64,000 bases of DNA from Levilactobacillus brevis (lineage in GTDB: Bacteria > Bacillota > Bacilli > Lactobacillales > Lactobacillaceae), in the NCBI GenBank assembly GCA_003666485.1, contig CP032931.1, forward strand, positions 1,488,001 through 1,552,000. The letters run 5' to 3'. Below, in pieces: positions 511 to 60,722 of this stretch. The notes under the pieces were generated by a model. That model saw only the letters and a list, made by a program, of their open reading frames with translations, ran no database searches and was not told where the DNA came from. Position 1 is the stretch's first letter; every line of letters begins with the position of its first letter. The translations under genes were made by a program, and so were the position numbers.

Positions 511-700
511 TAGCCGGGAGGTCGCTGGAGATGAGTTCAGCTGTGGGAGTTCCCTTAGTGGCGTGGTTTTACGACGCTTAGGGAACTGGCACCTTGGAGA
601 CGCGAATTTTCGGCTTCAAGGTGAGGCTCGAGACCGTTCTTTGGCTTGAGCCGGCGCCCTCAGCGTTCCGACTCATCTCCAGCGACCGGTAAGGCGGCCA
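511..700 (+). repeat. Structured intergenic repeat, copy 1
   Basis: This is one of five copies of a dispersed element of about 190 bp. The closing helix is 521-535 with 672-686, 15 bp without mismatch. Inside it are three hairpins: one with arms gttccct/agggaac, one ccttggag/cttcaagg and one ggctcgag/cttgagcc. The element starts with TAGCCGGGAG and ends with GGTAAGGCGGCCA, as in the other copies, and keeps the internal motif CAGCGTTCC. Arm sequences differ from other copies but remain complementary. It fills most of the 490-bp gap between fusA and the MATE gene and ends about 30 bp before that gene's -10 box. Confidence 0.85.
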
Positions 701-20111: not shown

Positions 20112-20180
20112 TGGTATTGTTTGCCCCACGATAAGCCCCGGAAAGTTTACTTGGTGTCAGACAAACACAGATTTATGGAG
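20112..20180 (+). promoter_or_regulatory. L13 leader (autoregulatory RNA)
   Basis: TGTTTG (20118-20123) pairs with CAAACA (20162-20167), enclosing a loop with GCCCCACGATAAGCCCCGG. The position before rplM and the loop text fit the L13 leader family known from Bacillales and lactobacilli, thought to mediate feedback by L13. The assignment is from memory of the family, not from a model search. Confidence 0.65.
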
Positions 20181-30319: not shown

Positions 30320-30510
30320 TAGCCGAGAGTTCGCCAAATATGGGTTCAGCCGTGGAAGTTCCCTTAGTGGGTGGTTCTTTACCCGCTTAGGGAACTGGCG
30401 TCTTTGAGACGCGGGCTATTGGCTCAAAGCGAGACCGAGACCGCTCCTCAGGCTCGGTCCGGTCCGCCCACAGCGTTCCAGTCCCATATTTGCCGAACGG
30501 TAGGCGGCCA
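30320..30510 (+). repeat. Structured intergenic repeat, copy 2
   Basis: The closing helix is 30329-30344 with 30483-30498 (15 of 16 pairs). The inner hairpins are gttccct/agggaac, ctttgag/ctcaaag and gaccgag/ctcggtc, the last two perfect 7-bp stems. The head TAGCCGAGAG, the internal CAGCGTTCC and the tail ACGGTAGGCGGCCA agree with the other copies. It fills most of the 530-bp gap between lplA and the LCP gene; the 150 bp before it hold no gene. Confidence 0.88.
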
Positions 30511-30698: not shown

Positions 30699-31766
30699 AT
30701 GGCAATGGAAAAGCGGCAACGGCCGCGTCGAAAGAAGCATCCGATCCGTAATCTCCTAATCATTTTGGTGATTGCGCTATTAGCAGGCGGTACCGTGTAT
30801 GGCATGCGTAAATATCAGAGCATTAAAGACTCCGTCGATAAGACCTACAAGGCATCTGGTGTGAAGAAACTCCGGAACGTTAACCAGGTCTTAAAGGATA
30901 AGGAACCCGTTTCAATCCTGTTGATGGGGACCGATACCGGGGCGTTGGGCCGAACCTTTGCTGGGCGGACAGACAGCATGATGGTGGTCACCTTGAATCC
31001 AGCGACGAATAAGACGACCATCACCAGCTTGCCGCGGGATACGGCCGTGACCATTCCGGGTTACGAGGACTACGGGCTGTCTAAGATCAACGCGGCCTAC
31101 GCCTATGGCAAGTCCAAGACGGCCATCACGACCGTGCAGGACATGCTGAACGTCCCGATTGATTTCTATGCCATCATCAACATGGGTGGGATGGAGAAGA
31201 TCATCGACGAGGTCGGTGGGGTGGACCTGAAGCCGTCCCTGTCATTTAGCTATGGCGGCTATTCCTTCAAGAAGGGCGTCGAAACGCACATGAACGGCAA
31301 GAAGGCGCTGGCCTACTCCCGGATGCGAGACGACGATCCGTTAGGGGACTACGGCCGGCAAACGCGGCAACGGAAGGTCATCATGGCCTTACTGAACAAA
31401 TCCAATTCGGTGACGTCCCTGTTGAACGAGTCCTTCATCTCGTCACTCTCCAAGCAAACGCAGACCGACCTGACCTTTGATGACCTGACGGCGCTGGCCA
31501 CCAACTACCGGAAGGCCACGCACCACATCAAGACCACCCACCTGCAAGGGACCAGCGAGACCATCGATGGCCAAAGTATGGAAGTGGCGTCAAAATCCGA
31601 ACTTCAGCGAGTCACGAACTATATTCGCACGGCGCTGGGCTTGACACACAAGACGACCGGGACGATTGCCCAGTTGAATGCCACGTCATCGACTACGACT
31701 AGTGATACCGGCAGTACCAATACGACTGGCGATAGCGGTAATGGTGGTCCCGGGAATGGTTTTTAA
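30699..31766 (+). CDS. LytR-CpsA-Psr (LCP) family glycopolymer transferase
   Basis: 355 residues: a basic cytoplasmic tail, one membrane helix (about 17-36) and an extracellular LCP domain. LCP enzymes move undecaprenyl-linked glycopolymers onto peptidoglycan. The catalytic set looks complete: MGTDT, GRTDSMMVV, SLPRDT and SRMRDDDPLGDYGRQTRQR. A low-complexity Ser/Thr/Gly/Asn tail ends the protein. It lies directly before the eps operon, fitting a role in anchoring polysaccharide or teichoic acid. Confidence 0.93.
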   Translation: MAMEKRQRPRRKKHPIRNLLIILVIALLAGGTVYGMRKYQSIKDSVDKTYKASGVKKLRNVNQVLKDKEPVSILLMGTDTGALGRTFAGRTDSMMVVTLNPATNKTTITSLPRDTAVTIPGYEDYGLSKINAAYAYGKSKTAITTVQDMLNVPIDFYAIINMGGMEKIIDEVGGVDLKPSLSFSYGGYSFKKGVETHMNGKKALAYSRMRDDDPLGDYGRQTRQRKVIMALLNKSNSVTSLLNESFISSLSKQTQTDLTFDDLTALATNYRKATHHIKTTHLQGTSETIDGQSMEVASKSELQRVTNYIRTALGLTHKTTGTIAQLNATSSTTTSDTGSTNTTGDSGNGGPGNGF

Positions 31767-31794
31767 GGTGTTGTTAAAAATAATTTTGTAAATT

Positions 31795-31831
31795 AAGAAC
31801 CGTTGGCAGCCGTGTGCCGACGGTTCTTTTT
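31795..31831 (+). terminator. Terminator of the LCP gene
   Basis: AAGAACCGTTGGCA (31795-31808) pairs with TGCCGACGGTTCTT (31815-31828), interrupted by one mismatch, and a run of T follows. Confidence 0.9.
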
Positions 31832-31869
31832 GACGTCTACTTGGCGGCGGGGATGCGCGCCGGCGTAAA

Positions 31870-31914
31870 GGTCATGAATCTGGACAATGGTTGAAAGGGC
31901 GAACATTCATGACC
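31870..31914. repeat. 10-bp inverted repeat upstream of the eps operon
   Basis: GGTCATGAAT (31870-31879) and ATTCATGACC (31905-31914) are perfect inverted copies separated by 25 bases. They lie about 70 bases before the likely -10 box of the eps operon, a possible regulator site. Confidence 0.6.
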
Positions 31915-31980
31915 AATACTTGATCAATACCACACAAAAATTGTAATGAGAATGTTTTAATTGTGGACAATGCGTTATAG

Positions 31981-32080
31981 TATAATTATCTTCATAATGA
32001 TGGGTTAAATATCAAGGACTGATGTTAATTCACATGAAATTGTTTTTGAAGTTAATTAATTTATGTGATATCATTTTTAA
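31981..32080 (+). promoter_or_regulatory. eps operon -10 box and leader hairpin
   Basis: TATAAT at 31981-31986 is a -10 box with a poor -35. In the leader, TCACAT (32030-32035) pairs with ATGTGA (32063-32068), extended by TGAT/ATCA. ATTTTT follows the stem, so it could act as an attenuator before the first eps gene. Confidence 0.45.
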
Positions 32081-32142
32081 CAGTTGTGTTTTTTAAAGAT
32101 TTCAATAAATTAAGTTAACGAACTGGTGTATTGGAGGAAAGT

Positions 32143-32925
32143 ATGGATTCAGAACAGACAATTAGCTTGATGCAAATCGTGGGCATCTTACGGAAACATT
32201 TGAAGTTAATCACGATAACGACCGTTGTTGTCTTTGTGGCGGCGTTCTTCATGACATTTTTCATCATGACGCCCAAGTATGAGGCGACCACGGAAATCTT
32301 AGTCAACCGTAAACTTTCTTCCACCGACCAAAGCGCTCAGTTGCAGCAGGTACAAGCCGACGTCCAGATGATCAGTACATATAAGGATATTATTACGAGT
32401 CCCACGGTCTTGGCCAGCGTGAACCGGACGTTGGCGTCTTACCCGGGTTATCCGGGCTCACAGGCGGGCATCAAGGACGCCTTGACCATTAGCAATGAAA
32501 CCAACTCGCAGGTGTTCTCAGTGACCGCTAAGGCAACTGACGGCACCACTGCGGCTGCCATTGCCAACGAGACGGCCAAGGTGTTCAAGCAAAAAGTGGT
32601 TAAGATGATGAGTATCAATAACGTGTCGATCGTTTCTAAGGCGCACGCCGTGAATACACCGGTCAGTCCGAAGAAGTCATTGAACCTGTTGATTGGCCTG
32701 GTTGCCGGGCTCTTACTGGGTGTTGTGCTGGCCTTCTTACGCGAGGTCACCGACCGGACCGTGAAGACCGAGGACTTCTTGACGGATGAGCTGGGATTAA
32801 CGAGTCTGGGTGTCATCAGTGAGATCGACATGGCGGCGATTGAAAAGCAAAATGGTCACCAGAAATTAGGAATCGTGACGGAGGGCAGTGTCCACGTCCA
32901 TTCAGAACATCGAAGAAGGGTGTAG
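32143..32925 (+). CDS. Polysaccharide chain-length regulator / tyrosine kinase modulator (Wzz-type)
   Basis: 260 residues from ATG 32143, preceded by GGAGG. Two membrane helices (about 24-44 and 175-195) flank an extracellular domain, with NTPVSPKKSLNLLIGLVAG at the second helix. In Gram-positives this adaptor activates the separate tyrosine kinase encoded next (Wzd/Wze, CpsC/CpsD). It is the first gene of the eps operon. Confidence 0.9.
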   Translation: MDSEQTISLMQIVGILRKHLKLITITTVVVFVAAFFMTFFIMTPKYEATTEILVNRKLSSTDQSAQLQQVQADVQMISTYKDIITSPTVLASVNRTLASYPGYPGSQAGIKDALTISNETNSQVFSVTAKATDGTTAAAIANETAKVFKQKVVKMMSINNVSIVSKAHAVNTPVSPKKSLNLLIGLVAGLLLGVVLAFLREVTDRTVKTEDFLTDELGLTSLGVISEIDMAAIEKQNGHQKLGIVTEGSVHVHSEHRRRV

Positions 32926-32934
32926 GTGATAGCG

Positions 32935-33708
32935 ATGGCATGGTTAAAACGACGAAAAGCAAAGCTAGATAATACCAGTCTTCGTTACGGTGTGGGCTTG
33001 GTCACATATTCTGATCCCAAGGGGCAGATTGCGGAACAGTTTCGGACCGTTCGGACAAACATTCAGTTCTCAGCGGTTGATCGGCAACTCCAATCAATCC
33101 TGTTTACCTCATCGGACCCGTCCGAAGGGAAGTCGACGATTAGTAACAATATGGCCGTTACCTGGGCGAAGCAGGGGACGCGCGTGATCCTGGTTGACGC
33201 GGATTTGCGTCGGCCAACGGTTCACCGGACCTTTGGCATCAGTAATCGCCGGGGATTGACGACGTATCTGTCAGGACACGTTGATGTCGCCACGATTATT
33301 CAACCGACCGTAGTCGATAATCTCGCGGTCATCACCAGCGGCCCCGTGCCACCGAACCCAGCAGAATTGCTGGATAGTGACCGGTTTAAGACGCTACTGA
33401 AGGAACTGGCCGACCAGTGTGATTTGATCGTCTTGGATTCGCCACCGGTCAACACCGTCACAGACTCACAGTTGTTGGCGGCACAGGTAGACGGCACGAT
33501 TCTCGTGGTTCCACAGGGGATTGCGGATAAGAATGGTGTTCGCCGAGCTAAGCAATTATTGGAGACCGTCCACGCCAACATCTTAGGCGCCATCATGAAC
33601 CGGGTCACGGCAGCGAAGTCCGGTGGCTACTACGGTGGTAAATATTATGGTGGCAATTACTATGGCGGTAAGGGTTACAGCGGTTATTACGGAACGGATG
33701 ATAAATAA
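32935..33708 (+). CDS. Tyrosine-protein autokinase of the eps cluster (Wze/CpsD-type)
   Basis: 257 residues from ATG 32935 with AGGTGA before it. Walker A SSDPSEGKST, Walker A' VILVDADLRRP and Walker B LIVLDSPPVN define a BY-kinase. The C-terminus is a tyrosine cluster (KYYGGNYYGGKGYSGYYG), the autophosphorylation tail. It works with the Wzz-type protein upstream and the phosphatase downstream to set polysaccharide output. Confidence 0.94.
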   Translation: MAWLKRRKAKLDNTSLRYGVGLVTYSDPKGQIAEQFRTVRTNIQFSAVDRQLQSILFTSSDPSEGKSTISNNMAVTWAKQGTRVILVDADLRRPTVHRTFGISNRRGLTTYLSGHVDVATIIQPTVVDNLAVITSGPVPPNPAELLDSDRFKTLLKELADQCDLIVLDSPPVNTVTDSQLLAAQVDGTILVVPQGIADKNGVRRAKQLLETVHANILGAIMNRVTAAKSGGYYGGKYYGGNYYGGKGYSGYYGTDDK

Positions 33709-34490
33709 TGGGGTTGATCGATCTCCACTGTCACTTGTTGCCGGGCGTAGATGACGGGTCAAAAGACTTGGACATGTCGCTGGGCATGGCGCGAGTGGCG
33801 GTCCAACAGGGCATTTCACACATCGTCTTGACGCCGCACCACATGGACGGGACCTACGTGAACCATAAGGCGGATGTGTTGGCGAAGACAACAGCGTTCC
33901 AGACGGCATTGGAAGCGGCTGAAATCCCGCTGACGGTGTTTGCGGGACAAGAGGTTCACTTGACCGGGGACTTGATGAAAGCCCTGGATGCGGACGATAT
34001 TTTGTTTCTGGACGCCAACGAGCACTATCTGTTGTTGGAGTTGCCCCATAGTGGGGTGCCAGCCTACACCAGAGAAATGATCTTTGCCCTGCAGACGCGG
34101 GGTATCGTACCGGTGATTGCCCATCCGGAACGGAATCACGGGTTTCAAACGGACCCAGATAAACTCTATGACTTTATGCAAATGGGGTGCCTAACGCAGC
34201 TGACGGCTAGTAGTTATGTCGGTGTATTTGGGGACTCGGTTGAGAAGTTAACAGCAAAGATTATCAATGCTGGTATGGGGGTGACCTTTGCCTCGGATGC
34301 CCACAACTTCAAGGGACGTCGGTTCCTAATGGCCGACGCGTTCGCAAAGTTAGCGGACCAGGCAGGGGCAGAAACAGCAGCAAGATTTAAGAATAATGCT
34401 AAAGCGATTATTAATGGGGATGATATCGCATTGCCGAGTTTCAAGCGACTCTCGGCGGTCAAGAAGAAAAGAAGGTTTTGGTTGTTCTGA
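33708..34490 (+). CDS. Tyrosine-protein phosphatase, PHP type (Wzb/CpsB)
   Basis: 260 residues. The metal site begins DLHCHLLPGVDDGSKD, and later metal ligands are in IAHPERN and FASDAHN. It dephosphorylates the kinase tail. The ATG shares a base with the kinase stop, and its stop overlaps the next gene by one base. Confidence 0.94.
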   Translation: MGLIDLHCHLLPGVDDGSKDLDMSLGMARVAVQQGISHIVLTPHHMDGTYVNHKADVLAKTTAFQTALEAAEIPLTVFAGQEVHLTGDLMKALDADDILFLDANEHYLLLELPHSGVPAYTREMIFALQTRGIVPVIAHPERNHGFQTDPDKLYDFMQMGCLTQLTASSYVGVFGDSVEKLTAKIINAGMGVTFASDAHNFKGRRFLMADAFAKLADQAGAETAARFKNNAKAIINGDDIALPSFKRLSAVKKKRRFWLF

Positions 34491-35158
34491 TGGAATATCG
34501 TGAAAGTAAAATAAAATCCCCTTCCATTGATGTTGTCTATCAGCAACATCGATACATATATCGATTCTGTAAGCGGCTATTTGATATTATGGCGAGCTTA
34601 ATTGCAGTGATCATCCTGTCACCATTATTTTTAATTGTGGCGCTCTTAATTAAGTTAGACGACGGCAAGGGGCCCGTGATCTATTCTCAGATTCGGTTAG
34701 GAAAGTATCAGCGGCCGTTTCGAATGTATAAATTCCGCTCAATGATTGTGGGTGCGGATAAAAAGAAAGCAAAATTGATTGCCCAAAATGATGTTGCCGG
34801 TGCCATGTTTAAAATGAAAGAAGACCCGCGCATCACCCGGTTAGGCCACTACTTACGCAAGTACAGTATTGATGAGCTGCCACAGCTAGTTAACGTGCTG
34901 CTGGGTCAAATGAGTCTAGTTGGACCACGGCCACCGCTGCCAAGAGAAGTAGCCGAATACACGCCATTTGATAAGCAACGGTTGGCAGTAAAACCCGGCT
35001 GCACTGGCTTGTGGCAGGTTACATTGCGTAACGATGCCAGCTTTGAGCAGATGGTTCGATTGGATTTGAAATATATTGAGAAGCGCGGATTCTGGTTTGA
35101 TCTGTATATGTTGGTTCGGACGGTTGCGGTGTTTGTTAAGCCTAATGGGGCTTATTGA
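34490..35158 (+). CDS. Priming sugar transferase (undecaprenyl-phosphate sugar phosphotransferase)
   Basis: 222 residues from ATG 34490. One membrane helix (about 27-50) is followed by the bacterial sugar transferase domain: MYKFRSMIVGADK, DPRITRLGHYLRKYSIDELPQ and LVGPRPPLP. It transfers the first sugar-1-phosphate to undecaprenyl phosphate on the inner face of the membrane, starting the repeat unit. The sugar (galactose or glucose type) cannot be told from the sequence alone. Confidence 0.93.
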   Translation: MEYRESKIKSPSIDVVYQQHRYIYRFCKRLFDIMASLIAVIILSPLFLIVALLIKLDDGKGPVIYSQIRLGKYQRPFRMYKFRSMIVGADKKKAKLIAQNDVAGAMFKMKEDPRITRLGHYLRKYSIDELPQLVNVLLGQMSLVGPRPPLPREVAEYTPFDKQRLAVKPGCTGLWQVTLRNDASFEQMVRLDLKYIEKRGFWFDLYMLVRTVAVFVKPNGAY

Positions 35159-35183
35159 AAGCAGTTGATACGGAGGGATAACA

Positions 35184-35963
35184 ATTAAAATCAAAATTTT
35201 GGTTGCCGCACATAAAGAGTTTCCCATGCCCAATGACAAAAATCTGTATCTTCCGGTATTGGTTGGGGCGACCCAAAATTATCGTGAGGGAATTGATTAT
35301 CAACGAGATGATGAGGGAGAAAATATTTCAAAAAAAAATCCTCATTACAGTGAGTTGACTGCAGTTTACTGGGCCTGGAAAAACTTAGAAGACGTCGATG
35401 CCGTTGGATTGGTACATTATAGGCGTTACTTTATGGGATCTGCTGGCTTGAACTTGAGTGGGGTGTTGAAGTCCGAGGATGTTGAAGATATTTTGAATTC
35501 TTATGAGGCTATCGTTCCTAAAAAGAGAAATTACTATATAGAAACGAATTACTCGCATTTCATTCACGCACATGGTTCCGAAGCACTTGACATGACACGC
35601 CGAATAATTCAAAAGGCCTTTCCGACCTATGTACAGAGCTTTGATTCAGTAATAAAAAAGCGGAGCGCTCATATGTTCAATATGTTTATTATGAAAAAAG
35701 AACAATTTGATAAATATTGTGAGTGGCTATTTAAAATCCTTTTCCAACTGGAAGCGACACTAGATGTTTCCAACTATACAGGGCAGGAAAAGAGAATTTT
35801 TGGATATATTTCGGAGTTACTCTTGGATGTGTGGTTGCAGCGTAATCAAATCAAATTTAAAGAAGTTAAATGGCGTCAATTTGGGAAAAAACACACATTG
35901 AATAAGCTAAGTAATTTTCTCCTCAGAAAATTCTCACTGGGAGGAAAACAAACACATTTTTGA
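35184..35963 (+). CDS. DUF4422 glycosyltransferase-like protein, apparent ATT start
   Basis: About 259 residues. The N-terminus KIKILVAAHKEFPMPND, then VGLVHYRRYF, match the DUF4422 family found in polysaccharide clusters. CGGAGGG at 35171-35177 is 6 bases before ATT 35184, which would start at the conserved family N-terminus. The first standard start codon, TTG 35199, is 21 bases from that site and would lose five conserved residues. From here the operon is clearly more AT-rich than the four preceding genes. Confidence 0.85.
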   Translation: MKIKILVAAHKEFPMPNDKNLYLPVLVGATQNYREGIDYQRDDEGENISKKNPHYSELTAVYWAWKNLEDVDAVGLVHYRRYFMGSAGLNLSGVLKSEDVEDILNSYEAIVPKKRNYYIETNYSHFIHAHGSEALDMTRRIIQKAFPTYVQSFDSVIKKRSAHMFNMFIMKKEQFDKYCEWLFKILFQLEATLDVSNYTGQEKRIFGYISELLLDVWLQRNQIKFKEVKWRQFGKKHTLNKLSNFLLRKFSLGGKQTHF

Positions 35964-35998
35964 TATACGTTTATATTGATGTTTTTTGGAGGGGTTGA

Positions 35999-36985
35999 AT
36001 GATTAAACCATTAGTAACGGTAATTGTTCCATCTTTCAACAACGAAAAGACTATTAAAGATTGCATAAACTCTGTTAGAGTACAGTCGTATGCTAATCTA
36101 GAGATATTAGTCATTAACGATGGTTCAGATGACGCTACACCAGATATTTTAGATGGATTTTTGCGTTTAGATGAACGTGTTAGGGTTGTGACCACAGAAA
36201 GAAAGGGTATTTCTGCTGCCAGAAACCTGGGTGTAAGTTTAGCAAAAGGAAAATATCTTTCCTTTGTGGATTCTGACGACATCGTCGATATGGACTATGT
36301 TGAGTATCTTTTGAACCTTATCTGTACGTTTGATGTGCCAATTGCGAGTTGTCAGCATAGAATAGTTATTCAAGGAAAGTTAAAAAGAAATTTTGAGTTT
36401 TCTAAAAAAGCTAAACTTATTTCGCAAAAGAAATGGTTTGAGTTAGTTTTACAACGGAAAATACTGGACTTATCTGTGTGGGGAAAGATCTATCGTACAG
36501 AATTATTCGATGGGATTAAGTTTCCCAATGGGAAGTTATTTGAGGATAGTTCAACAACGTATAGACTTGTTGCTAAGGCTAAGAAAATTGTTGTCGGTGG
36601 TGAATCGAAATATAATTATAAGCTTAGGAATGGATCAATAACACGTTCTAATTTTTCTAAAGCATCATTCGATTTAATCGAAGCCACTAAAGAGATGACT
36701 TCATACGTCGTTTCTAGGTATCCAGATTTAAGGGTTGCCGCAGACCTCAGAGAATTTTGGGCGTACGGTAGTACGTTAAATAAGATCCTTGTTAGCAATG
36801 ACTATTTTAAATATAAGAAGTATGCACATAAAATTAAAGAAGAAATGCGCAGTCGTAGAACACCAGTATTTACTAAACAGAATCCAGATTTCAGATTAAA
36901 GTTAGTCGCTATTATGCTAGTTTTTGGTACCCCATTTTATCGACGCTTATTAATGATTGAAGAGAGGTGTCATGGCTTCAGATGA
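35999..36985 (+). CDS. Family 2 glycosyltransferase
   Basis: 328 residues. GT-A fold: VTVIVPSFNNEKTIKDCI, the nucleotide site VINDGSDDAT and the metal-binding SFVDSDDIVD. It adds a sugar from a nucleotide donor to the lipid-linked eps intermediate; specificity is unknown. GGAGGGG precedes the ATG. The 3' end overlaps the next gene by 4 bp. Confidence 0.92.
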   Translation: MIKPLVTVIVPSFNNEKTIKDCINSVRVQSYANLEILVINDGSDDATPDILDGFLRLDERVRVVTTERKGISAARNLGVSLAKGKYLSFVDSDDIVDMDYVEYLLNLICTFDVPIASCQHRIVIQGKLKRNFEFSKKAKLISQKKWFELVLQRKILDLSVWGKIYRTELFDGIKFPNGKLFEDSSTTYRLVAKAKKIVVGGESKYNYKLRNGSITRSNFSKASFDLIEATKEMTSYVVSRYPDLRVAADLREFWAYGSTLNKILVSNDYFKYKKYAHKIKEEMRSRRTPVFTKQNPDFRLKLVAIMLVFGTPFYRRLLMIEERCHGFR

Positions 36986-37899
36986 AAACTAGAATTAAAT
37001 GGTATTCTATAAAGATATTAAACTTTATTGGGAAGGTTAGTATAAAATTGGGCTTTCCTGCAATCTTAGTAAGAGCTATTTTTTACGAGAAAGATAGAAT
37101 GGTTTATCCTTTTATAAGGCAAATTGCCAATGAAAGTAAGAAAGTTAATAATCTAGGGACTAATAAGTCAGTTGAAATAGATAGTGTTATTTGGACGGGG
37201 TGGTTACAGGGAGAAGACGAAGTTCCCAATTTGATTAAATTATGTGTGAATAGCATGAATAAGTTCTCTAACGGACACCCCATCGTCTTTATTTCAGAAA
37301 AAAATATTTTTACCTATCTCCCAGGATTTCCTCAATCTATTTTTCAAAAGTATAAAAAGGGAATGATAAAACCGGCACATTTTATGGATGTAGTTAGGTT
37401 ATGCCTTTTGACAACATATGGAGGACTGTGGGTTGATCCAACTGTGTTATTGACGAGAAATGTTGAAGATGAGTGGTTTAAAGAAGATTTCTTTTCTTTT
37501 AAGTCTGTACCTGGAAAAATGCATTCTAATCCAGCCGAATCGATGTGGTGCACTTTTTTTCTTGGTGCTTCAAAAAATTCTATAGTGTTTCAAAAAAGTC
37601 TAAGTATACTTTTGGAATATTGGAAGAAAAATAATGCAGTTATTGATTATTTTCTGCTAGATTACGTAATGAAGTATGTTTATGATAGTAATACATCTGT
37701 AAGAAAAAAAGTGGACAGTGTAACTAAATCATCGACAAATGTTTTTGGAATAAATCAACTATTGCGGCAGAAATACTCAGCTGAAAACATGTTTAAATTG
37801 GAAAAAGAAATTGAAAGTGATGGCATTTTTAAGCTCAGTTATAAAATCAAATTCAAGAATGACTCTCTTTATAAGTTTTGGGAACGGACTTCTTTATGA
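36982..37899 (+). CDS. Capsular polysaccharide synthesis glycosyltransferase (GT32-like)
   Basis: 305 residues from ATG 36982. IWTGWLQGEDEVPNLIKLC, KPAHFMDVVRLCLLTTYGG and WVDPTVLLTR match the Caps_synth/GT32 group, where the late DxT/DxD element binds metal. A GTG at 36967 would add five residues. Base composition is AT-rich. Confidence 0.87.
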   Translation: MKTRIKWYSIKILNFIGKVSIKLGFPAILVRAIFYEKDRMVYPFIRQIANESKKVNNLGTNKSVEIDSVIWTGWLQGEDEVPNLIKLCVNSMNKFSNGHPIVFISEKNIFTYLPGFPQSIFQKYKKGMIKPAHFMDVVRLCLLTTYGGLWVDPTVLLTRNVEDEWFKEDFFSFKSVPGKMHSNPAESMWCTFFLGASKNSIVFQKSLSILLEYWKKNNAVIDYFLLDYVMKYVYDSNTSVRKKVDSVTKSSTNVFGINQLLRQKYSAENMFKLEKEIESDGIFKLSYKIKFKNDSLYKFWERTSL

Positions 37900-37954
37900 G
37901 TTATCTCAATTTAGACGGTTCATAAGTGTGATAGTTAAAGAGGGGGAATTGACA

Positions 37955-38953
37955 TTGGATGATATCGATTTTGTCGTGACATGGGTAAATAGTGAAGATC
38001 AAAAATGGCAGAAAAAAAAAGAAAAATTCGCATCAGACTCCCTTCGAGTACGTTCTATGAATACGCAAAGCAGATATAGAAACTATCGATTATTTAAATA
38101 TTGGTTTAGAGCAGTTGAAAAATATGCACCATGGGTGCACAAGATATTTTTGATAACAGATAATCAGGTGCCGACGTGGTTAGATGTTGAAAATGAAAAG
38201 ATAGTATTGGTGAACCATTCTGACTATATAGACTCTAAATACCTTCCAACTTTTAATTCAAATGTTATCGAGCTTGAGATTGGGTTAATACCAAATTTAG
38301 CTGATCATTTCGTCCTATTTAATGATGATACGTTTTTAAATGCCCAAGTCACACAAGAAGATTTTTTTAAAGGATCATTACCAAGGGATACTTACGTAGA
38401 AAGTCCCATTATTTCTACGAAGGGAAGTATTGCGCATGCGATGGTCAATGATATGGAAGTAATTAACGATGTGTTCTCAAAGAAACAATTTTATCGAAAA
38501 AATTGGAATAAAGTTTTTTCCGCAAGAGTTGGTTTGAAGTTACTGAGGACGCTTGTGTTACTACCTTCTAGAAATTTTAGTGGTATTTGGAATAGCCATT
38601 TACCGGTGCCATATTTAACGAAAACTTTTTATGATGTATGGCACTATATGCCTGACGCTTTGGAGAATATGATGAATAATAAATTTCGAACACCGTATGA
38701 CTATAATCATTGGTTAATGCGGTATTGGCAACTAGTTTCTGGGAACTTTCAAGTGCAGAGTAGTAATTGGGGACGAGTTTATGATTTGGGAATGACAAGG
38801 ATGGAGTGCTTGCAAAACGAAATTGAAATGTCTAAGCACAAAGTTATTTGTCTTAATGATACCGATAATGTTGTTGACCCTACCATTATTAGAGATGGAT
38901 TGACTAAGTCATTTGAAAAGATATTTCCCCAAAAAAGTGTCTTCGAAAAGTGA
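37955..38953 (+). CDS. Stealth-family sugar phosphotransferase
   Basis: 332 residues from TTG 37955 (MDDIDFVVTWVNSED). AGGGGG is 8 bases upstream; TTG 37949 is too close to it. The conserved regions are DIDFVVTWVN, RYRNYRLFKYWFRAVEKYAPWVHKIFLITDNQVP, HSDYIDSKYLPTFNSNVIE and HFVLFNDDTFLN. Stealth proteins transfer sugar-1-phosphate, giving phosphodiester-linked polysaccharides. This suggests a phosphate-containing repeat unit. Confidence 0.9.
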   Translation: MDDIDFVVTWVNSEDQKWQKKKEKFASDSLRVRSMNTQSRYRNYRLFKYWFRAVEKYAPWVHKIFLITDNQVPTWLDVENEKIVLVNHSDYIDSKYLPTFNSNVIELEIGLIPNLADHFVLFNDDTFLNAQVTQEDFFKGSLPRDTYVESPIISTKGSIAHAMVNDMEVINDVFSKKQFYRKNWNKVFSARVGLKLLRTLVLLPSRNFSGIWNSHLPVPYLTKTFYDVWHYMPDALENMMNNKFRTPYDYNHWLMRYWQLVSGNFQVQSSNWGRVYDLGMTRMECLQNEIEMSKHKVICLNDTDNVVDPTIIRDGLTKSFEKIFPQKSVFEK

Positions 38954-39206
38954 ACCCGAATTGTCAAATCAAGTGCAACACCAGATAGAGCCTCGTAATC
39001 AAGGAGACGATTAATTTTGGTGAATATTAGTTGGTGATGTGGGTCTTATCAAAATGTTATGCAATTTAAATTTATTTTCGTTGTTAAGTTGACCGAGTGA
39101 GGCTCTTTCAGGCTGTATGTGTGGATGATTTTGTGAAGCACGCTTTGGTTGGTAGTTGGTTGTTAACGGTACCAATAAATTGAAACTAGGTGTGAATATA
39201 GTAGAT
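38954..39206. other. 253-bp non-coding spacer inside the eps operon
   Basis: No gene is seen. AGAGCCTCG (38988-38996) and CGAGTGAGGCTCT (near 39100) are partly inverted copies. Around 39095-39165 the text (gttgaccga, ggctcttt, gaagcac, tttggt) loosely resembles the spacer at 40230-40280. It may hold a secondary promoter or the scar of a past insertion. Confidence 0.3.
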
Positions 39207-40187
39207 ATGTATGATTTAAATGTAATTGTGACCGTGAGGAATAGTTCGAATACATTAAATAAGTGTTTGAGTTCTATTTCAGCACAGACATATAAGAATT
39301 TTAAAGTGATAATTGTTGATGACGGATCCACCGACGGGAGCCTGGAAATTTGTAATGCATGGATAAAGCGTGATCATAGGTTTGTGCTAGTTAAGAATAC
39401 TACTAATCACCATGGAGCCTCTGTGGCGAAAAATATTGGTTTAGTAAATGCAAGTGGGATGTATTTGACATTCGTTGATAGTGATGATTGGATTGAGCCT
39501 GTGCATTTTGACTTTCTACTGAAAAATATGACGGCGGGATCGCTGTGCGTTACCGGATGGACTCGAAGTGAACAAAAAAGTATATGTCTGGGGGGAGTTG
39601 TGAAACTATCGCGAGATGAATGCTTTATAAAGGCACTAGGAATGGGGACTTTTGGAGGGTACTTGTGTAATAAAGTATTTGATTTGAATTTGATTAGGCA
39701 GTATGACTTATCTTTGGATGAAGAAATTAAGATAAGTGAAGATCTCCTGTTTGTCATTCAGTATTTAAAGCATTGCAATGGTGGCTTTGTTTTAAAAAAA
39801 TGTGAATCATATCATTATATTGTTCGTAAAGGATCATTGACTCATTTAGTTGAAATGAGTGAAGCGCAACTGTGGTCTCAAGTTAATGCGTCAATAAAAA
39901 TTTCAAGTTTGCTTGATGATGAAAGCAAAAGAGTTAAACAAATGGTTAAGGTGCATTCAGCCAAGGTTTTGAATGACACTTACGTTGATGCATTTCGAAT
40001 AAATTATATGAACGGAAAATGTTTAAAAGATTTAAGACGTAGATTAATACATGTTTTCCTACTATATGTATTCAGTAAAGAGTTTACATTACATTCGAAG
40101 ATTTCGATTCTACTCACCGTTATGACTCCCAGATTGGCTGGTCATATCAGAAGGTATCGAATGGCCCAGAATAACCATCTCGATTGA
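39207..40187 (+). CDS. Family 2 glycosyltransferase
   Basis: 326 residues from ATG 39207 (MYDLNVIVTVRNSSNTLNKCL). The GT-A motifs are VDDGSTDGS and TFVDSDDWIEP. Sequence upstream of this ATG in the same frame is not conserved-looking, and a GTG at 39192 is an alternative start. It is probably responsible for one linkage of the eps repeat unit. Confidence 0.88.
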   Translation: MYDLNVIVTVRNSSNTLNKCLSSISAQTYKNFKVIIVDDGSTDGSLEICNAWIKRDHRFVLVKNTTNHHGASVAKNIGLVNASGMYLTFVDSDDWIEPVHFDFLLKNMTAGSLCVTGWTRSEQKSICLGGVVKLSRDECFIKALGMGTFGGYLCNKVFDLNLIRQYDLSLDEEIKISEDLLFVIQYLKHCNGGFVLKKCESYHYIVRKGSLTHLVEMSEAQLWSQVNASIKISSLLDDESKRVKQMVKVHSAKVLNDTYVDAFRINYMNGKCLKDLRRRLIHVFLLYVFSKEFTLHSKISILLTVMTPRLAGHIRRYRMAQNNHLD

Positions 40188-40295
40188 TCAAAACGGAATA
40201 GGTTTAATCAATAAATGAAAAGATAATTGTAGGTTGACTGAACTCTAAGGCTTTTTGCGAAGCACCACGGTGATTTTTGGTAACTGGGAGATATT
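40188..40295. other. 108-bp spacer in the eps operon
   Basis: The segment contains no gene. It shares short blocks with the spacer at 39095-39165 (gttgac.ga, aggct.ttt, gaagcac). GGGAG at the end is the ribosome binding site of the following TTG-started gene. Confidence 0.3.
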
Positions 40296-41399
40296 TTGCT
40301 TTTGAATGGGATTATTACTTATCGACTGAATTATTTCATAAGTACTTTTAAGGGTGGGTTAGTAAAGATGACAATGTATTGTTTAAATATAGTACGCGAT
40401 ATGGTTAGTAATGATGGGCTAACGAAACCCAGAAGCGATATTGCTAAAATACTAAGACGTGATATGATTCAGTCGATTAGTGTGCCCATTTTGAATGGAA
40501 AGAAAGAAAAATTTTTGTTTTCATGGTCGCGTGTTAGTGATGTGCTGAATTGGCTGCATGAAGGAGACAAATTAATAATTAATTATCCAACTGATATGGG
40601 AGTATTGTTTGATCAAATTCTTGTGAGACGACTGAGACGATTAAATATAAAGTTGATTACCCTTATACATGACATTGATGCTCTGAGATTCGAGCAGCCT
40701 TTTTATAAAGGAATATCTTATGAAACAAGATTACTTAATTACTCTGACGCTATAATATCACCTAATAAAGTTATGTCAGAAAAGCTTGTTAATAGTGGTG
40801 TTAAAAGTAACATTGTAAATTTAAATTTGTTTGATTACCTGACAGATGTGGATGTTGCTGAAAAGAGAGTATTTTTCTCAAAAAAAGTTTCCTTTGCAGG
40901 AAATTTGAATAAGTCTGAATTTATCTTTGATTTGCTGCATAAAAAAACTGAATATAGTTTTTATGGACCTATAAAAAAAGAAAATAAGACTTTAATGAAG
41001 TCCTATCAGGGAAGTTACGATTCGAATGTTCTCATAAGAAAAATAGATAATGGATTTGGCCTTATTTGGGATGGAGAATCTGCCGAATTTATTGATGCGA
41101 CCAATATTTCTAGTGGGAGTTATTTATTGTATAACAATCCCTATAAACTGTCTTTTTACATCGCCGCAGGGATCCCAGTTATTATTTGGAGGGATGCGGC
41201 AGCAGCACAGTTTGTTGAGAACAACTCTATTGGATTACTAGTGTCATCTCTTGACGAAGTAGACTTAGTTTTGGAAAAGCTTGGTTCTTCTGAGTATGAG
41301 CAAATGCAGAAAAATGTAAGAGGAATACAAAAAAAAGTTGTAAAGGGATACTATACTTTGAGAGCAGTGAGGCTTGCTGAGAAGTCATTTATGAAGTGA
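40296..41399 (+). CDS. Galactofuranosyltransferase-like glycosyltransferase
   Basis: 367 residues from TTG 40296. GT-B type: the N-terminal half has IINYPTDMGVLFDQILVRRL and ITLIHDIDALRF; the C-terminal half has FAGNLNKSEF, GFGLIWDGES and NPYKLSFYIAAGIPVIIW. This pattern is that of beta-1,6-galactofuranosyltransferase-like proteins in lactic acid bacterial eps clusters, which use UDP-galactofuranose. A match in specificity is likely but inferred; glf lies two genes downstream. Confidence 0.85.
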   Translation: MLLNGIITYRLNYFISTFKGGLVKMTMYCLNIVRDMVSNDGLTKPRSDIAKILRRDMIQSISVPILNGKKEKFLFSWSRVSDVLNWLHEGDKLIINYPTDMGVLFDQILVRRLRRLNIKLITLIHDIDALRFEQPFYKGISYETRLLNYSDAIISPNKVMSEKLVNSGVKSNIVNLNLFDYLTDVDVAEKRVFFSKKVSFAGNLNKSEFIFDLLHKKTEYSFYGPIKKENKTLMKSYQGSYDSNVLIRKIDNGFGLIWDGESAEFIDATNISSGSYLLYNNPYKLSFYIAAGIPVIIWRDAAAAQFVENNSIGLLVSSLDEVDLVLEKLGSSEYEQMQKNVRGIQKKVVKGYYTLRAVRLAEKSFMK

Positions 41400-41483
41400 C
41401 TCGGTAACCTTTTTACATTGGGTCGAGAGAAAGGGCGAGGGTCATTCTAATAATCTTTGCAAGGGCAAGGGGGGATAATTTTA

Positions 41484-42758
41484 ATGAATCGAGAAAAAGT
41501 TAAGGGGGCTGTTAGGCATCCGATTACGGTTCTTTTGGATTATTTCTTTATAGCAATTACTATCTTACAATGCAACAGTGTATTTTATCGTGCAGGGAAT
41601 CATTTAGCAAAAGTACAAATTCTTTGGCTAATATTAACGTTAATTATCTTTTTTCGTAGCGTAATCAAGATTTTCTTATCTAAGACTGACATTACACGTC
41701 TTCTTTTGTTTTTACTATTATTTTCGTTGATTGAGGTTTGTATACTCGGTATAACATATCAGGTTACTGCACTACCAAAAGGAACTGTAATTCTTTATTT
41801 AGTGGCACCAATTATGTTAGTAACCATTTTTTTCGGTGAGATTAGTTTTGAAAACGGTGCGTACTTATTTATTGTTTATAAAAATATTATGCTTGCTTTG
41901 GCTATGGTTTCCTTAATTTTTTGGCTCTTGGCCATGCTTGGAGTGCCGACAACTATGAACACGGCTATTCAATGGGGAGGATACCATCAAGTACCTGGGT
42001 ATTTGGGGGTACATTATATCTCTCAAGGTAGCACTAATTTTTTAGGCATCAATATGGTTCGAAATACTGGCTTGTTCGTCGAGGCACCAATGTATTCGTA
42101 CGTGCTTTCAATTGGCTTGTTGATTCTTTTATTTGTTGATGAGAGATTAATTAAAAAAAGAAAAAACGAGATTTTACTACTAGTAATTACAATATTGACA
42201 ACGACTTCAACGACGGGAACCATTGTTGCATTATTAGCGATTGTTTATGATATGTTGATAGTTAAGAATAAGGCACCTTTAATTCTAAAAGTTATTATAG
42301 TGACGTTGGGGATGCTGCTAGTTGGTATACTTGTACGGATAATTTTATTAAGGAAAATACAAGGTGGAGGTGCTGGGTCGGTCAATATTAGATGGAATGA
42401 TATACAGGCAGGATTTTATGCTTGGAAAGATCATCCGTTGATAGGTAATGGCTTTGGTAACTACGATTCAATTATGGCGTATATGGATCCTAGTAGATTA
42501 GTCATGAATGGAAACGGAGGGTTTTCTAGCGGACTAATGGAAACTCTTGCATATGGTGGGATTTTGGCAGGACTATTTCAGATAGTGCCAACCTTTTTAA
42601 CATTGGCAAAGTCTAAAAAATTATTTGGTTTGGCCGTCATTTCCTTTGTTCTATTTGTAGTAACTATTGTGGATAATGTCTACATATACACGATGCTATT
42701 AAGTTATATTTGGGCAGAAATTATTTTTAAAAAGGCAGGAAGTGAGAAAAATGAGTAA
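41484..42758 (+). CDS. Polysaccharide polymerase (Wzy-type)
   Basis: 424 residues from ATG 41484. About ten to eleven hydrophobic segments with a larger external loop containing QGSTNFLGINMVRNTGLFVEAPMYSY, and the motif HPLIGNGFGNYDS characteristic of O-antigen polymerase-like proteins. It links repeat units on the outer face of the membrane. The 3' end overlaps glf by 8 bp. Confidence 0.88.
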   Translation: MNREKVKGAVRHPITVLLDYFFIAITILQCNSVFYRAGNHLAKVQILWLILTLIIFFRSVIKIFLSKTDITRLLLFLLLFSLIEVCILGITYQVTALPKGTVILYLVAPIMLVTIFFGEISFENGAYLFIVYKNIMLALAMVSLIFWLLAMLGVPTTMNTAIQWGGYHQVPGYLGVHYISQGSTNFLGINMVRNTGLFVEAPMYSYVLSIGLLILLFVDERLIKKRKNEILLLVITILTTTSTTGTIVALLAIVYDMLIVKNKAPLILKVIIVTLGMLLVGILVRIILLRKIQGGGAGSVNIRWNDIQAGFYAWKDHPLIGNGFGNYDSIMAYMDPSRLVMNGNGGFSSGLMETLAYGGILAGLFQIVPTFLTLAKSKKLFGLAVISFVLFVVTIVDNVYIYTMLLSYIWAEIIFKKAGSEKNE

Positions 42759-43821
42759 GTATTTAGTCGTCGGTGCTGGGTTATTCGGATCTGTATTCGC
42801 GCATGAAGCTGCAATGCGCGGCAATCAGGTTACAGTCTTGGAAAAAAGAAACCACATTGCTGGAAATATCTATACTAAGGAAGTTGAGGGAATCCAAGTT
42901 CATATGTATGGCGCTCATATTTTTCATACGAAAATGAAGAATATCTGGGACTATGTTCGACAGTTTGCTGATTTTAATCACTATGTTAATAGTCCAATTG
43001 CCAATTATCATGGTGAGATTTATAATCTGCCATTCAATATGAATACTTTCAATAAACTTTGGGGGGTTATCACACCTGATGAAGCAAAAGCTAAGATCGA
43101 CGAACAGAAGAAAGCAGTTCTGCTAACTGATAATCCTACCAATCTTGAAGAACAGGCAATTTCTTTGATTGGAACTGATGTTTATGAAAAGCTAGTTAAG
43201 GGATACACCGAGAAGCAATGGGGACAGTCAGCGACTGAGCTGCCAGCGTTCATTATCCGGCGGTTACCGGTTCGCTTTACGTATGATAATAATTATTTTA
43301 ATGATCCGTATCAGGGAATCCCAATTGGTGGCTATACGCAGATTGTTGAGAAACTCCTAGACAATCCTTTGATTAGTGTCAAAACTAATGTAGATTATCT
43401 TAAGCATCGTAACTTGGCTGCCGATTCGAATACCAAGATTATTTATACTGGAATGATTGACCAGTTTTTTGATTATAAGCTAGGTGCCTTAGCTTATCGG
43501 AGTCTCAGGTTTGAGACTGAGGTCAAGGATACAGATAACTATCAAGGAAATGCAGTAGTCAATTATACTGATTCAGAACATCCATTTACTCGTGTCATTG
43601 AACATAAACACTTTGAGTTTGGTAAAGGAAACAAGGGAAGAACAGTTATTACGCATGAATATCCCCAGGCGTGGCATCAGGGGGATGATCCTTATTATCC
43701 GATAAACAACTTGCAGAACAAAACTTTGTATAAGCAGTATACAGAGCTGGCAAAGTTAAAAGCGCCAAACGTTATTTTTGGTGGCCGCTTAGGACAAGGT
43801 AGCGTCAAGAATCTTGTGTAA
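42751..43821 (+). pseudogene. glf: UDP-galactopyranose mutase, 5' part, interrupted by an insertion sequence
   Basis: The frame from ATG 42751 encodes residues 1-349 of UDP-galactopyranose mutase, the flavoenzyme making UDP-galactofuranose. FAD binding is seen in VVGAGLFGSVFAHEAA; YGAHIFHT, GYTEKQWG and the arginine of GGRLGQ follow. After GRLGQ (codon 43795-43797) the frame runs seven codons into an IS256-family element and stops. The missing C-terminal 23 residues, with YRYYNMDQ, lie beyond the element at 45158-45229. The Tyr and Asp of that motif bind substrate phosphate and flavin in studied enzymes, so the truncated form is probably inactive. Confidence 0.95.
43790..43797 (+). repeat. 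Target-site duplication of the IS element, left copy
   Basis: TAGGACAA directly precedes the left end of the element and is repeated at 45150-45157. Confidence 0.92.
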
Positions 43822-43822
43822 A
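43798..43822 (+). repeat. Left terminal inverted repeat of the IS element
   Basis: This 25-bp end is inverted at 45125-45149 with 20 matches. It overlaps the aberrant stop codon of truncated glf (43819-43821). Confidence 0.88.
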
Positions 43823-43856
43823 CGAAATGCCTTCGTACATATAATATGTATCTAAC

Positions 43857-45032
43857 TTAAATAAATGATGCTTCCAAGGTGTCCTGGAGTCCTTTGAACC
43901 CTCGGTGGATCCGCTTCAGAGACTTCTCGTTATAAACATTAAACTGAGAAACCAGGAAGCGATCCAGTGAATCTTCCGTTGGAAATTGTTCTTTGTGGTG
44001 GGTGGTGCGCTTGAGATGCTTATTAAAGTTCTCAATCGGGTTAGTGGAGTATAGTGATTGCCGGATAGCTGGTGGAAAGTCCATGAAAGTGAGTAAATTC
44101 GGCATTTTAAGCAGATCTTTGATTAATTTGGGATAGGTCTGATGCCAGTTGTTGGCGAACTCATTCAGTTTCAGTTCGGCTGCTTCACGGTTGGCGGCCC
44201 GATGAACTTGTTTAAAGTCACTGATCACGGCCTTGCGGTCTTTTACGCGAACTTTGTTCATCAGATTCCGCCCAACATGAACCAGGCAACGTTGTCGTTT
44301 GGCTTTAGGGAAATTCCGATTCAAGCCTTCATCCAAACCAACTAACCCATCGGCCACAAACAACAGCACATCTTTAACGCCCTGCTTGATCAAGGTTCCC
44401 AGCAGTTCAGTCCAGATTCCAGTCGATTCCGTTGGCGCCACTTGGTAGTTCAGCACTTCTTTCGTACCATCTGGACGAATGCCAATCGCAATATGAACGG
44501 CTTCTTTTTGAACGGTATCCCGCTTTAACGGCAAGTAAGTGGCATCTAAGAAGATGGCCGCATATTGTGAAGCCAGTCGACGTTGCTGGAAAGCTTGAAC
44601 CTGTTCATTGACGGCTTTAGTCATGTTGGAAACCGTGGCTTTGGAGTAGTGAGCACCGTACATTTTCTCAATGAGTTCGGCAATTTCAGCAGTGGTAATT
44701 CCCTTGGTATACAACTGAATGACCGTTGTTTCTAAATTATCACTGTGCCGACCGTAGGCTGGCAAGGTATGATTTTTAAACCGGCCATTGCGATCTCGAG
44801 GAATGGTTAAGTTAAGTTGGCCGTACTTCGTATCAAACGAGCGCTCATAACTGCCGTTGCGGTTATTACCAGTGTTAGTCCCAGCGTATGAGTAGCGTTC
44901 GTAACCCAAAAACTCTACCAATTCGGTTTGAAGCAGCTGGTTAATCGCAATTTCGAGGTGGTGACGAAAAACTTCGTCCAAATCTTGCTTTTGGGCTAGT
45001 GCAGCGATAATTTCTGTGGTAAGTTCATTCAT
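43857..45032 (-). CDS. IS256-family transposase
   Basis: 391 residues, apparently full length (MNELTTEIIAALAQKQDLDE...). A DDE transposase: the likely triad is D in FLDATYLPL, D in VADGLVGL and E in STNPIENFNK. NNRNGSYERSFDTKYGQLNL and GITTAEIAELIEKMYG near the N-terminus are typical of the mutator/IS256 group. It is transcribed against the eps operon. No frameshift is seen. Confidence 0.96.
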   Translation of the reverse strand: MNELTTEIIAALAQKQDLDEVFRHHLEIAINQLLQTELVEFLGYERYSYAGTNTGNNRNGSYERSFDTKYGQLNLTIPRDRNGRFKNHTLPAYGRHSDNLETTVIQLYTKGITTAEIAELIEKMYGAHYSKATVSNMTKAVNEQVQAFQQRRLASQYAAIFLDATYLPLKRDTVQKEAVHIAIGIRPDGTKEVLNYQVAPTESTGIWTELLGTLIKQGVKDVLLFVADGLVGLDEGLNRNFPKAKRQRCLVHVGRNLMNKVRVKDRKAVISDFKQVHRAANREAAELKLNEFANNWHQTYPKLIKDLLKMPNLLTFMDFPPAIRQSLYSTNPIENFNKHLKRTTHHKEQFPTEDSLDRFLVSQFNVYNEKSLKRIHRGFKGLQDTLEASFI

Positions 45033-45124
45033 GGGGAATGCCTCCTGTGATGTTTTCTGTGGTTACTAAATATCATAAGGGAAGGCATTCCCTATTTCTA
45101 TACAATTCAGAAATCTTTTATGCA

Positions 45125-45149
45125 TTTACACAAGATATTTTACGCTCTC
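45125..45149 (-). repeat. Right terminal inverted repeat of the IS element
   Basis: It is the inverted partner of 43798-43822. Like many IS256 ends it includes a TTTACA, but no -10 box lies at a matching distance outside. Confidence 0.88.
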
Positions 45150-45157
45150 TAGGACAA
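45150..45157 (+). repeat. Target-site duplication of the IS element, right copy
   Basis: TAGGACAA repeats 43790-43797. In the uninterrupted gene it encodes part of LGQ before YRYYNMDQ. Confidence 0.92.
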
Positions 45158-45229
45158 TATCGTTATTATAATATGGACCAGACAATTATGGCTGCTTTAC
45201 AGGTAGCTCATCGAGAATTTGGAGATTAG
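45158..45229 (+). pseudogene. glf: glf 3' remnant (last 23 codons)
   Basis: The frame reads YRYYNMDQTIMAALQVAH to the stop at 45227-45229, the normal C-terminus of UDP-galactopyranose mutase. It has no start codon or ribosome binding site. With residues 1-349 from the upstream part the ancestral protein had 372 residues. Confidence 0.93.
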
Positions 45230-45237
45230 GTGAAGCG

Positions 45238-46653: not shown

Positions 46654-47107
46654 TGTAATTTGATAAACACAAAGTGTCAGATTAGGAGGCAGAGCATCAG
46701 TTCACACAAGGTGGAGGTAAACCCTCAACGGCAGGTTGGAACCGTTGAGAACATTGTTCGAGATTTAATTGGTAACAATCTGATGAATCCGTCCGATAAT
46801 CGTTGTAATTGCAATCAATTAACAGTATCATTAGTACTATTATCATTTCTTTAATCGTTACTGAGACGATTGCATGAAATGGTTAATTGATTGGCCGGAT
46901 TCGCAGATGTTGCTAGTTAATGAAAATAGCGCATCGGAATTAAGTTTCGCGGGTAAGGCGTGGGTGAGTTTGTCGTCTTCTGTTCAATACACAGATTATT
47001 GCTGCCGGCAGTCAATAGCGTAAGTCATACTTAACGACAGGATTACATCACCCATTTAATTATTCGTCGATATTTGCTTTCGTGCAAAGGAAAGGTGTAT
47101 CAGACAA
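46654..47107. other. 454-bp intergenic region after wzx
   Basis: No convincing gene. Two inverted repeats are seen: CTCAACGG (46724-46731) with CCGTTGAG (46742-46749), and TTAATTG (46765-46771) with CAATTAA (46816-46822). They may act in 3' end formation of the eps transcript. The ribosome binding site AAGGAAAGG of the next gene lies near the end. Confidence 0.4.
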
Positions 47108-48085: not shown

Positions 48086-48097
48086 GTGTTCAGTTAA

Positions 48098-49186
<1,089 letters not shown>

Positions 49187-53954: not shown

Positions 53955-54135
53955 TGACCGCCTGCCGTTCGCCAAATATGGGTTGGAACGCTGTGGGCGC
54001 CGGGCCGAGCCAAAAAGCGGTCTCGCCCCTAAACTTGGAGCCGGTGACCCGCGTCTCCAAGTTTTCAGTTCTCTAACCAGCAAGCTGCTAAGAAAACTCC
54101 CACGGCTGAACCCATATTTGGCGAACTCTCGGCTA
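53955..54135 (-). repeat. Structured intergenic repeat, copy 3
   Basis: On the minus strand it reads TAGCCGAGAG at the start and GGCAGGCGGTCA at the end. The closing helix is 53967-53982 with 54111-54126, 16 of 16 pairs. Hairpins have arms gttttct/agagaac, cttggag/ctccaag and gggcgag/ctcggcc. CAGCGTTCC is present. It separates cydB from cydD. Confidence 0.88.
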
Positions 54136-54149
54136 CGGTAGTGGAGGTC

Positions 54150-54365
54150 AAAAACACCTGTTTAACCCAAGGTGTCAGCGGCTCCATGTCGCCAGCAAGC
54201 ACCAATCTGCCGGAGGAGGCCAGGGGCGTAGCCAGCTGTGTCGACCCAGTTAGCTGGCGTTTCTTGCCAGGCTTCCAAGCGAACCGGAAGCCCGCTTCAC
54301 AGGCTGGAGATGTTCCCCATAGCAGGCGGAACCCCTGGCAGCCGCAGGCATGGTAGGCGGCATGT
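54150..54365. other. Second structured segment between cydB and cydD
   Basis: GCCAGGGG (near 54218-54225) pairs with CCCCTGGC (near 54332-54339). The helix encloses GCCAGCT/AGCTGGC and GGCTTCC/GGAAGCC hairpins and a third weaker one. A separate hairpin ACACCT/AGGTGT lies at 54154-54175. The end TGGTAGGCGGCA resembles the tail of the dispersed repeat, but the body does not align with it. It may be a remote member or an unrelated RNA. Confidence 0.45.
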
Positions 54366-60235: not shown

Positions 60236-60424
60236 GGCCGCCTTCCGTTCGCGCCATATGGGCCGGAACGCTGTGGGCGGACGGGTCGAGCCAAAAAGCG
60301 GTCTCGACACCTCGACTTTGAGCCGAAGAGCACGTCTCAAAATCGCCATACCCCTAACCGGCCCAACCCGTGCCGCTAAGGGGTATCCCACGGCTGAGCC
60401 CATATGGCGCGAACTCCCGGCTTT
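60236..60424 (-). repeat. Structured intergenic repeat, copy 4
   Basis: The minus-strand copy begins just after menA. The closing helix 60247-60262 with 60399-60414 is perfect over 16 bp (GTTCGCGCCATATGGG), with three adjacent changes relative to copies 2 and 3 that are matched in both arms. The first hairpin is TACCCCTTA/TTAGGGGTA. It stands head to head with copy 5, 115 bp apart. Confidence 0.88.
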
Positions 60425-60539: not shown

Positions 60540-60722
60540 TAGCCGGAGTTCGCTAAAGATGCGCTCAGCCGTGGGAGTTTTCTTAGCGGCAACGCCGGTT
60601 AGAAAACTGGCATCTTTGAGACGGGGCTGTCGGCTCAAAGTGAGGGCCGAGACCGCCCCTCAGGCTCGGACCGGTCCGCCCACAGCGTTCCAGCGCATCT
60701 TTAGCGGACGGTAGGCGGCCAG
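60540..60722 (+). repeat. Structured intergenic repeat, copy 5
   Basis: The closing helix is 60548-60565 with 60692-60709 (18 bp, one G-U). Hairpins have arms gttttct/agaaaac, ctttgag/ctcaaag and gccgag/ctcggac. The tail ACGGTAGGCGGCCAG equals that of copy 2. It lies 160 bp before xpt. Confidence 0.88.

Follow-up and report, generated by a model that had tools for sequence, protein, structure and literature searches.

A family of strand-specific folded domains in Levilactobacillus brevis, probably the halves of a non-coding, non-autonomous DNA transposon

The window analysed here, a 64-kb stretch of the Levilactobacillus brevis genome G000, carries five near-full copies of a domain of about 190 nt, on the plus strand at 511..700 (copy 1), 30320..30510 (copy 2, the query) and 60540..60722 (copy 5), and on the minus strand at 53955..54135 (copy 3) and 60236..60424 (copy 4). 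An earlier note on this DNA had placed them from the letters alone, and its positions and strands are borne out within 1-2 nt by an nhmmer profile and a covariance model (CM), copy 1 for instance scoring 138 bits with the former and 176 bits with the latter. The nhmmer E-values of the window copies (1e-40 to 2e-53) are beyond chance, and no sixth near-full copy is returned by the profile (E up to 0.01) or the CM (E up to 0.001). Copies 4 and 5 are the left and right halves of a divergent pair, 117 nt apart. Copy 3 is accompanied by a partial partner at 54209..54349, missed by the CM, where two matches of the module B profile described below (segment positions 142209-142262 and 142254-142349, window offset 88000) fall on the minus strand and are read as a plus-strand domain; the two would form a divergent (-,+) pair. 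Copy 1 has no partner module nearby, and no B, LM or RM module match alongside. The domain starts with the head TAGCCGRGAG, followed by a closing helix, the motif CAGCGTTCC opposite TCAGC(C/T)GTGG, three hairpins and the tail GGTAGGCGGCCA, as first described, with conserved junction motifs outside the helices. However, GAGACG and GAGACCGC, initially taken as the loops of hairpins two and three, mainly form the 5' strands of stems 2 and 3.

The window also contains an L13 ribosomal protein leader (20113-20171), its sole Rfam match above cut-off, a 274-nt repeat in two adjacent copies that are 82% identical (49338-49888), and a block of ~16.5 kb (31699-48176) without counterpart at the syntenic place in the sister genome G030, near the borders of which lie direct repeats (31257-31662 and 47627-48035).

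The domain is abundant. Blastn reports at least 40 copies in G000, 82-88% identical (the query itself excepted), and 43 near-full copies were counted in 478 kb of this genome (28 in 252 kb, 12 in 120 kb and 3 in 106 kb), which extrapolates to about 280 copies per 3.1-Mb genome, bearing in mind that density varies and that two of the three counted regions were picked since element-bearing loci mapped there. Across 98 genomes, blastn matches occur in 25, all of one genus (the window's own genome and 24 of 34 others); among the matches listed in the scan that gave names are Levilactobacillus species and one uncultured Lactobacillus bin. The covariance model R1, built from 57 sequences, with rough E-values and with at most 75 or 13 hits kept per genome, identifies relatives in 33 of 35 genomes of the genus, in 58 of 201 of the family (12 of 40 genera, its own included) and in 6 of 198 of the order. 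Two of the latter, G080 and G059, belong to another family and return weak matches (best E 3e-6 and 1e-4) with 4 and 2 copies, respectively, which may point to a superfamily reaching beyond the Lactobacillaceae. Six distant loci keep much of TAGCCG, CAGCCGTGG, GAGACCG..TTTGGCTC and CACAGCGTTCC, with both arms of the closing helix altered, and one hairpin is missing from at least two (L312 and L315). Carriage by plasmids or phages was considered and set aside, a blastn search with copy 2 returning no match in plasmid or phage collections.

The folding energy of copy 2 lies 6.9 s.d. below that of dinucleotide shuffles on the plus strand and 6.1 s.d. below on the minus strand, and RNAalifold analysis of 34 copies from the same genome predicts 49 pairs, 25 of which show changes on both sides. 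Covariation was evaluated on 209 copies with a procedure that resembles R-scape but is not R-scape (tree, parsimony, shuffled substitutions, 60 nulls). Sixteen column pairs covary (E < 0.05, tree-based null) and all sixteen reside inside the proposed helices, spread over P1, P3, P4 and P5: nine in the closing helix, in line with the covariation already claimed for it, one in hairpin 1, three each in hairpins 2 and 3, and none elsewhere. The 42-nt outer flanks exhibit no significant covariation, the 13 pairs of that run being all within the domain.

Changes counted along the tree of these 209 copies, for pairs at least 60% Watson-Crick, lead from Watson-Crick to G-U 236 times as compared with 105 times to A-C (p 1e-12, taking parsimony events as independent), to another Watson-Crick pair 418 times and to other mismatches 174 times; ancestral states came from a 5-null rerun, the 20 covarying pairs of which were set aside. 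Similarly, P1-P4 of the first 34 copies hold 46 G-U and 11 A-C cells. A G-U pair reads as A-C on the complementary strand, and the G-U excess thus indicates that the strand beginning with TAGCCG has been kept foldable: one specific strand of the domain, the TAGCCG strand, is the folding one. Selection on the folded form, proposed from the five window copies, is supported both by the confinement of all significant pairs to helices and by this bias. Matched arms could also arise without any selection on the fold, as template switching mends imperfect palindromes by DNA copying error. The dominance of double changes (the 418 events) would suit such an origin, as would the standing paired cells, of which just 2.8% are G-U, low for an RNA, and 1.5% A-C. 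However, template switching should treat G-U and A-C equally, while both halves of the unit described below are biased on their own strand, and neither the spread of significant pairs over four helices nor the conserved junction motifs fits it, which makes this origin unlikely.

The flanks of the copies share further modules: among 186 copies, a left arm accompanies 39, a right arm 25, and both arms 24. Upstream of the domain (hereafter module A) lies module B, which forms a separate family of at least 40 genomic copies. In three units (unfiltered), the CM built on A aligns with the whole of B on the opposite strand at 17-22 bits, versus less than 3 bits on B's own strand; in a larger set the opposite-strand scores are 23-45 bits. 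As the control, antisense A, attains 16-22 bits, equal to B in the three-unit test, the CM alone proves the kinship of B only where B scores higher. Module B possesses two significant covarying pairs of its own, and RNAalifold reports a weak consensus on its plus strand. If B folds as an opposite-strand domain, a G-U excess is expected there, and the changes on that strand, counted in four hand-chosen helices after the CM had pointed to this reading, are 77 to G-U and 26 to A-C (p 5e-7), as predicted. From these comparisons, module B looks like a diverged opposite-strand copy of the A domain.

The arrangement of neighbouring domains, defined as lying within 600 nt of each other (18 pairs in G000 and 13 in G026), is markedly uneven: 22 pairs are divergent (-,+), none is convergent (+,-) and nine are on the same strand (15, 0 and 3 in G000; 7, 0 and 6 in G026). 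At least one weak match, under 100 bits, takes part in 17 of the 22 divergent pairs; with both matches above 100 bits, the counts are 5, 0 and 3. Of the six distant loci, four likewise contain divergent pairs. The most fitting reading of the unit is an inverted pair whose domains each fold on the strand that has its 3' end outwards, and the ~190 nt of the domain are often one half of such a unit of ~640 nt, many copies being solo or partial. The weak partner matches and the A-antisense control slightly lower our confidence in the explanation proposed below.

Some domains appear to have been rearranged between species. At orthologous sites of G026 (24891 and 151804, loci L286-L294 joined) and G011 (57682, loci L295-L304 joined), the outer frame made of closing-helix arms and tails is alike and the interior, judged by eye, is of the A type in one species but of the B type in the other, as if interiors had been swapped, most clearly at 151804 and 57682. 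A facing domain pair also appears, by eye, inverted between G026 (83409/83666) and G011 (82925/83212), each copy being closer to the other-side copy of its relative. In G033, three units of about 720 bp (L281, L282 and L283) carry an unrelated insert in the core, between model positions ~35 and ~77-86 (hairpin 1).

Twenty-nine units in the sequence analysed are complete, with both arms nearly complete, and 18 of these measure 628-648 nt. Both unit ends carry the inverted terminal repeat CTRAAGGTTGAAAG. The possibility that the arms of the domain are simply terminal repeats of an insertion sequence, raised by the earlier note, applies in part: the domain sits in a transposon-like unit with terminal repeats, but these ends are separate from the covarying helices. 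Direct repeats of at least 7 nt flank 16 of the 29 units, some of them including terminal-repeat letters, as compared with 4.9% of shuffled pairings, and are lacking at the other 13; the clearest target duplications are of 8 bp, such as TTATATAA and TTAGCTAA. In contrast, the borders of the 190-nt domain (141 copies, solo A included) show no target duplication (3.89 versus 3.77 shuffled).

G030 has 95 occurrences of the terminal motif and G033 has 53, against a single exact match in G000; the reversed-pattern control gives 0. These counts suggest recent activity in G030 and G033 and an older family in the window's genome, where the terminal repeats themselves have diverged; by this measure, the family looks more recently active in the former two. 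The site of copy 2 is occupied in G000 and G030, with no core found in G033, and in G030 (L158) the core has shrunk to nothing but its closing helix, in a unit that is otherwise nearly full. An insertion in G030 faces an intact matching site in G000 and bears a GTTAAG repeat. Out of 53 syntenic module-bearing intervals, 18 are occupied in G000 only, 11 in G030 only and 24 in both, that is 29 in one of the two sister species, and some of the shared ones are in opposite orientation; this comparison can overlook remnants, as at copies 4 and 5, where G030 retains a fragment. Most intergenic flanks are too diverged for clean empty sites, and junctions are mostly imprecise.

No ORF longer than 100 aa is fully contained in the units inspected, although one of 153 aa overlaps an end, and inspection of 30 of the 149 terminal-motif places returned no transposase, mobility gene or autonomous relative. 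A candidate autonomous parent, a 3.9-kb span between terminal motifs, turned out to be separate elements. Six of the 30 loci have no arm at their centre: by our reading, three are cut near a contig end, L251 is next to a domain remnant, L273 lies near an arm, and L267 stands alone.

The copies mostly lie between long ORFs, 52 of 186 overlapping an ORF of 90 aa or more. For the 162 copies with neighbours on both sides, the flanking ORFs, delineated with a crude gene caller, are co-directional in 93 cases, convergent in 42 and divergent in 27 (background 177/71/60), which provides no clear bias and led us to reject cis-regulation as judged by gene orientation. A scan of one full unit reports two promoter-like sites (0.9 expected), one of them in an arm and none in the spacer, and a single terminator-like match, at chance (1.3 expected). 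Among seven places compared between G026 and G011, two were left out, their facing pair being inverted from one species to the other; the five remaining ortholog pairs display nine one-sided changes to or from G-U, six breaking or making a pair, and, among double changes, three compensated and one other, which is compatible with some selection in place. The same comparison between G000 and G030 covers four same-orientation places, one of which is a clear ortholog by eye. Each copy might be a cis-acting regulatory RNA (leader, terminator or attenuator) working in place, as the strong fold, the G-U bias, the siting mostly between long ORFs and these ortholog changes would allow. With no clear orientation relative to ORFs, modules in one sister genome only at 29 of 53 intervals and a lone terminator-like match at chance level, we regard this as very unlikely.

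The domains most probably belong to a family of non-autonomous, non-coding DNA transposons, represented by a full unit and by folded halves, a reading to which we assign a probability of roughly 0.7. Its grounds are the copies and their covariation, a strand bias in both halves, divergent pairs in excess, terminal repeats with target duplications, and presence or absence between sister species. The unit would comprise, in order, an inverted terminal repeat, an arm of ~95 nt, the minus-strand folded domain (module B), a spacer, the plus-strand folded domain (module A), a second arm of ~95 nt and the other inverted terminal repeat, about 640 bp in all, and would insert with duplication of about 8 bp of target. 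As no protein gene was seen within it and an autonomous version was not encountered, it is presumably moved by a trans-acting transposase. The fold would be kept since each half has to adopt it as a single strand, the 3' end of which points outwards to its own terminus. A REP/REPIN-type repeat moved by a Y1 (RAYT) transposase on single-stranded DNA would share the inverted pairing, the strand-specific fold and the G that precedes the 5' TAG (GTAG) in 89% of 141 copies, but is scarcely credible, as Y1_Tnp, present in 23 of 35 genus genomes, has no match in the element-rich G030 and G011, the GTAG faces inwards, and terminal repeats with ~8-bp duplications would better fit a cut-and-paste enzyme.

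Within the transposon reading, the folding strand could be RNA, DNA or, with a smaller probability, something else; the earlier note had put forward RNA or a DNA four-way junction. That it is RNA, to which we give a little less than an even chance, agrees with the complexity of the fold and with the strand bias, and less well with the modest G-U share of paired cells given above (2.8%, against 1.5% A-C) and with the spacer of the scanned unit, which is devoid of promoter-like sites, though an arm has one. Single-stranded or extruded DNA used in transposition is only slightly less probable than RNA: the symmetric 3'-outward arrangement argues for it, whereas the terminal repeats and ~8-bp duplications suggest a double-strand mechanism, and no orientation bias is apparent by eye along the contig (for the 40 blastn places listed, 10+/10- in its first half and 9+/11- in its second). 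It is conceivable, if doubtful, that the family represents a Lactobacillaceae-wide mobile class, the mobility or control of which depends on two complex folded single-stranded domains, one per strand with 3' ends outwards, that is, a transposon with structured RNA-like ends, unlike any described class.

To our knowledge, strand-specific inverted folded domains with covariation are undescribed for such elements. The earlier impression that the repeat matches no named family is supported by Rfam 15, in which no hit overlaps the element in the window (gathering scores) or at 3 loci and another 7 (E up to 1), and by the literature searched, mostly outside subscription papers, where no description appears in the available parts of sources including PMC10969869, PMC3049150, PMC2864571 and PMC3733652. 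With some 90 near-full copies in each megabase of the stretches read, with relatives in 12 of the 40 genera sampled from the family and without an Rfam hit overlapping it, the repeat constitutes a large annotation blind spot in industrially used bacteria. Moreover, its covarying and strand-specific design in inverted pairs makes it testable whether a DNA transposon can rely on single-stranded ends with a complex fold, or whether it carries an RNA under selection.

Known systems share some of these traits. Integron attC sites are folded single strands with variable but complementary arms, and the domain resembles them by this description, but differs by its terminal repeats and duplications and its more complex fold. 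REPINs are REPs in inverted pairs. REP sequences, as far as the accessible part of their description goes, carry a GTAG tag and fold as single strands of 20-40 bp (PMC3733652); the tag, the single-strand fold and the inverted pairs recall our element, which instead displays a three-hairpin domain of ~190 nt and no RAYT link. BOX elements of Streptococcus pneumoniae, ordered boxA-boxB(n)-boxC, are modular, intergenic, folded, present in many copies and thought to be non-autonomous mobile elements (PMC3049150, in its available part, where the term "covar" is absent). Our element is likewise modular, intergenic, multi-copy, folded and probably non-autonomous, and is set apart, by the BOX description rather than by BOX sequences, by its two related domains, inverted and divergent. 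Prokaryotic MITEs are non-coding, with terminal inverted repeats and target duplication (PMC10969869, the available part of which mentions neither "lactobacill" nor "lactic"). The CTRAAGGTTGAAAG terminal inverted repeats, the target duplication and the absence of any ORF above 100 aa lying entirely within the units inspected are MITE traits in this sense; the internal strand-specific folded domains with compensatory evolution are not, and no parent IS turned up among the terminal-motif places read. In its ends the element resembles MITEs, and in style BOX elements or REPINs.
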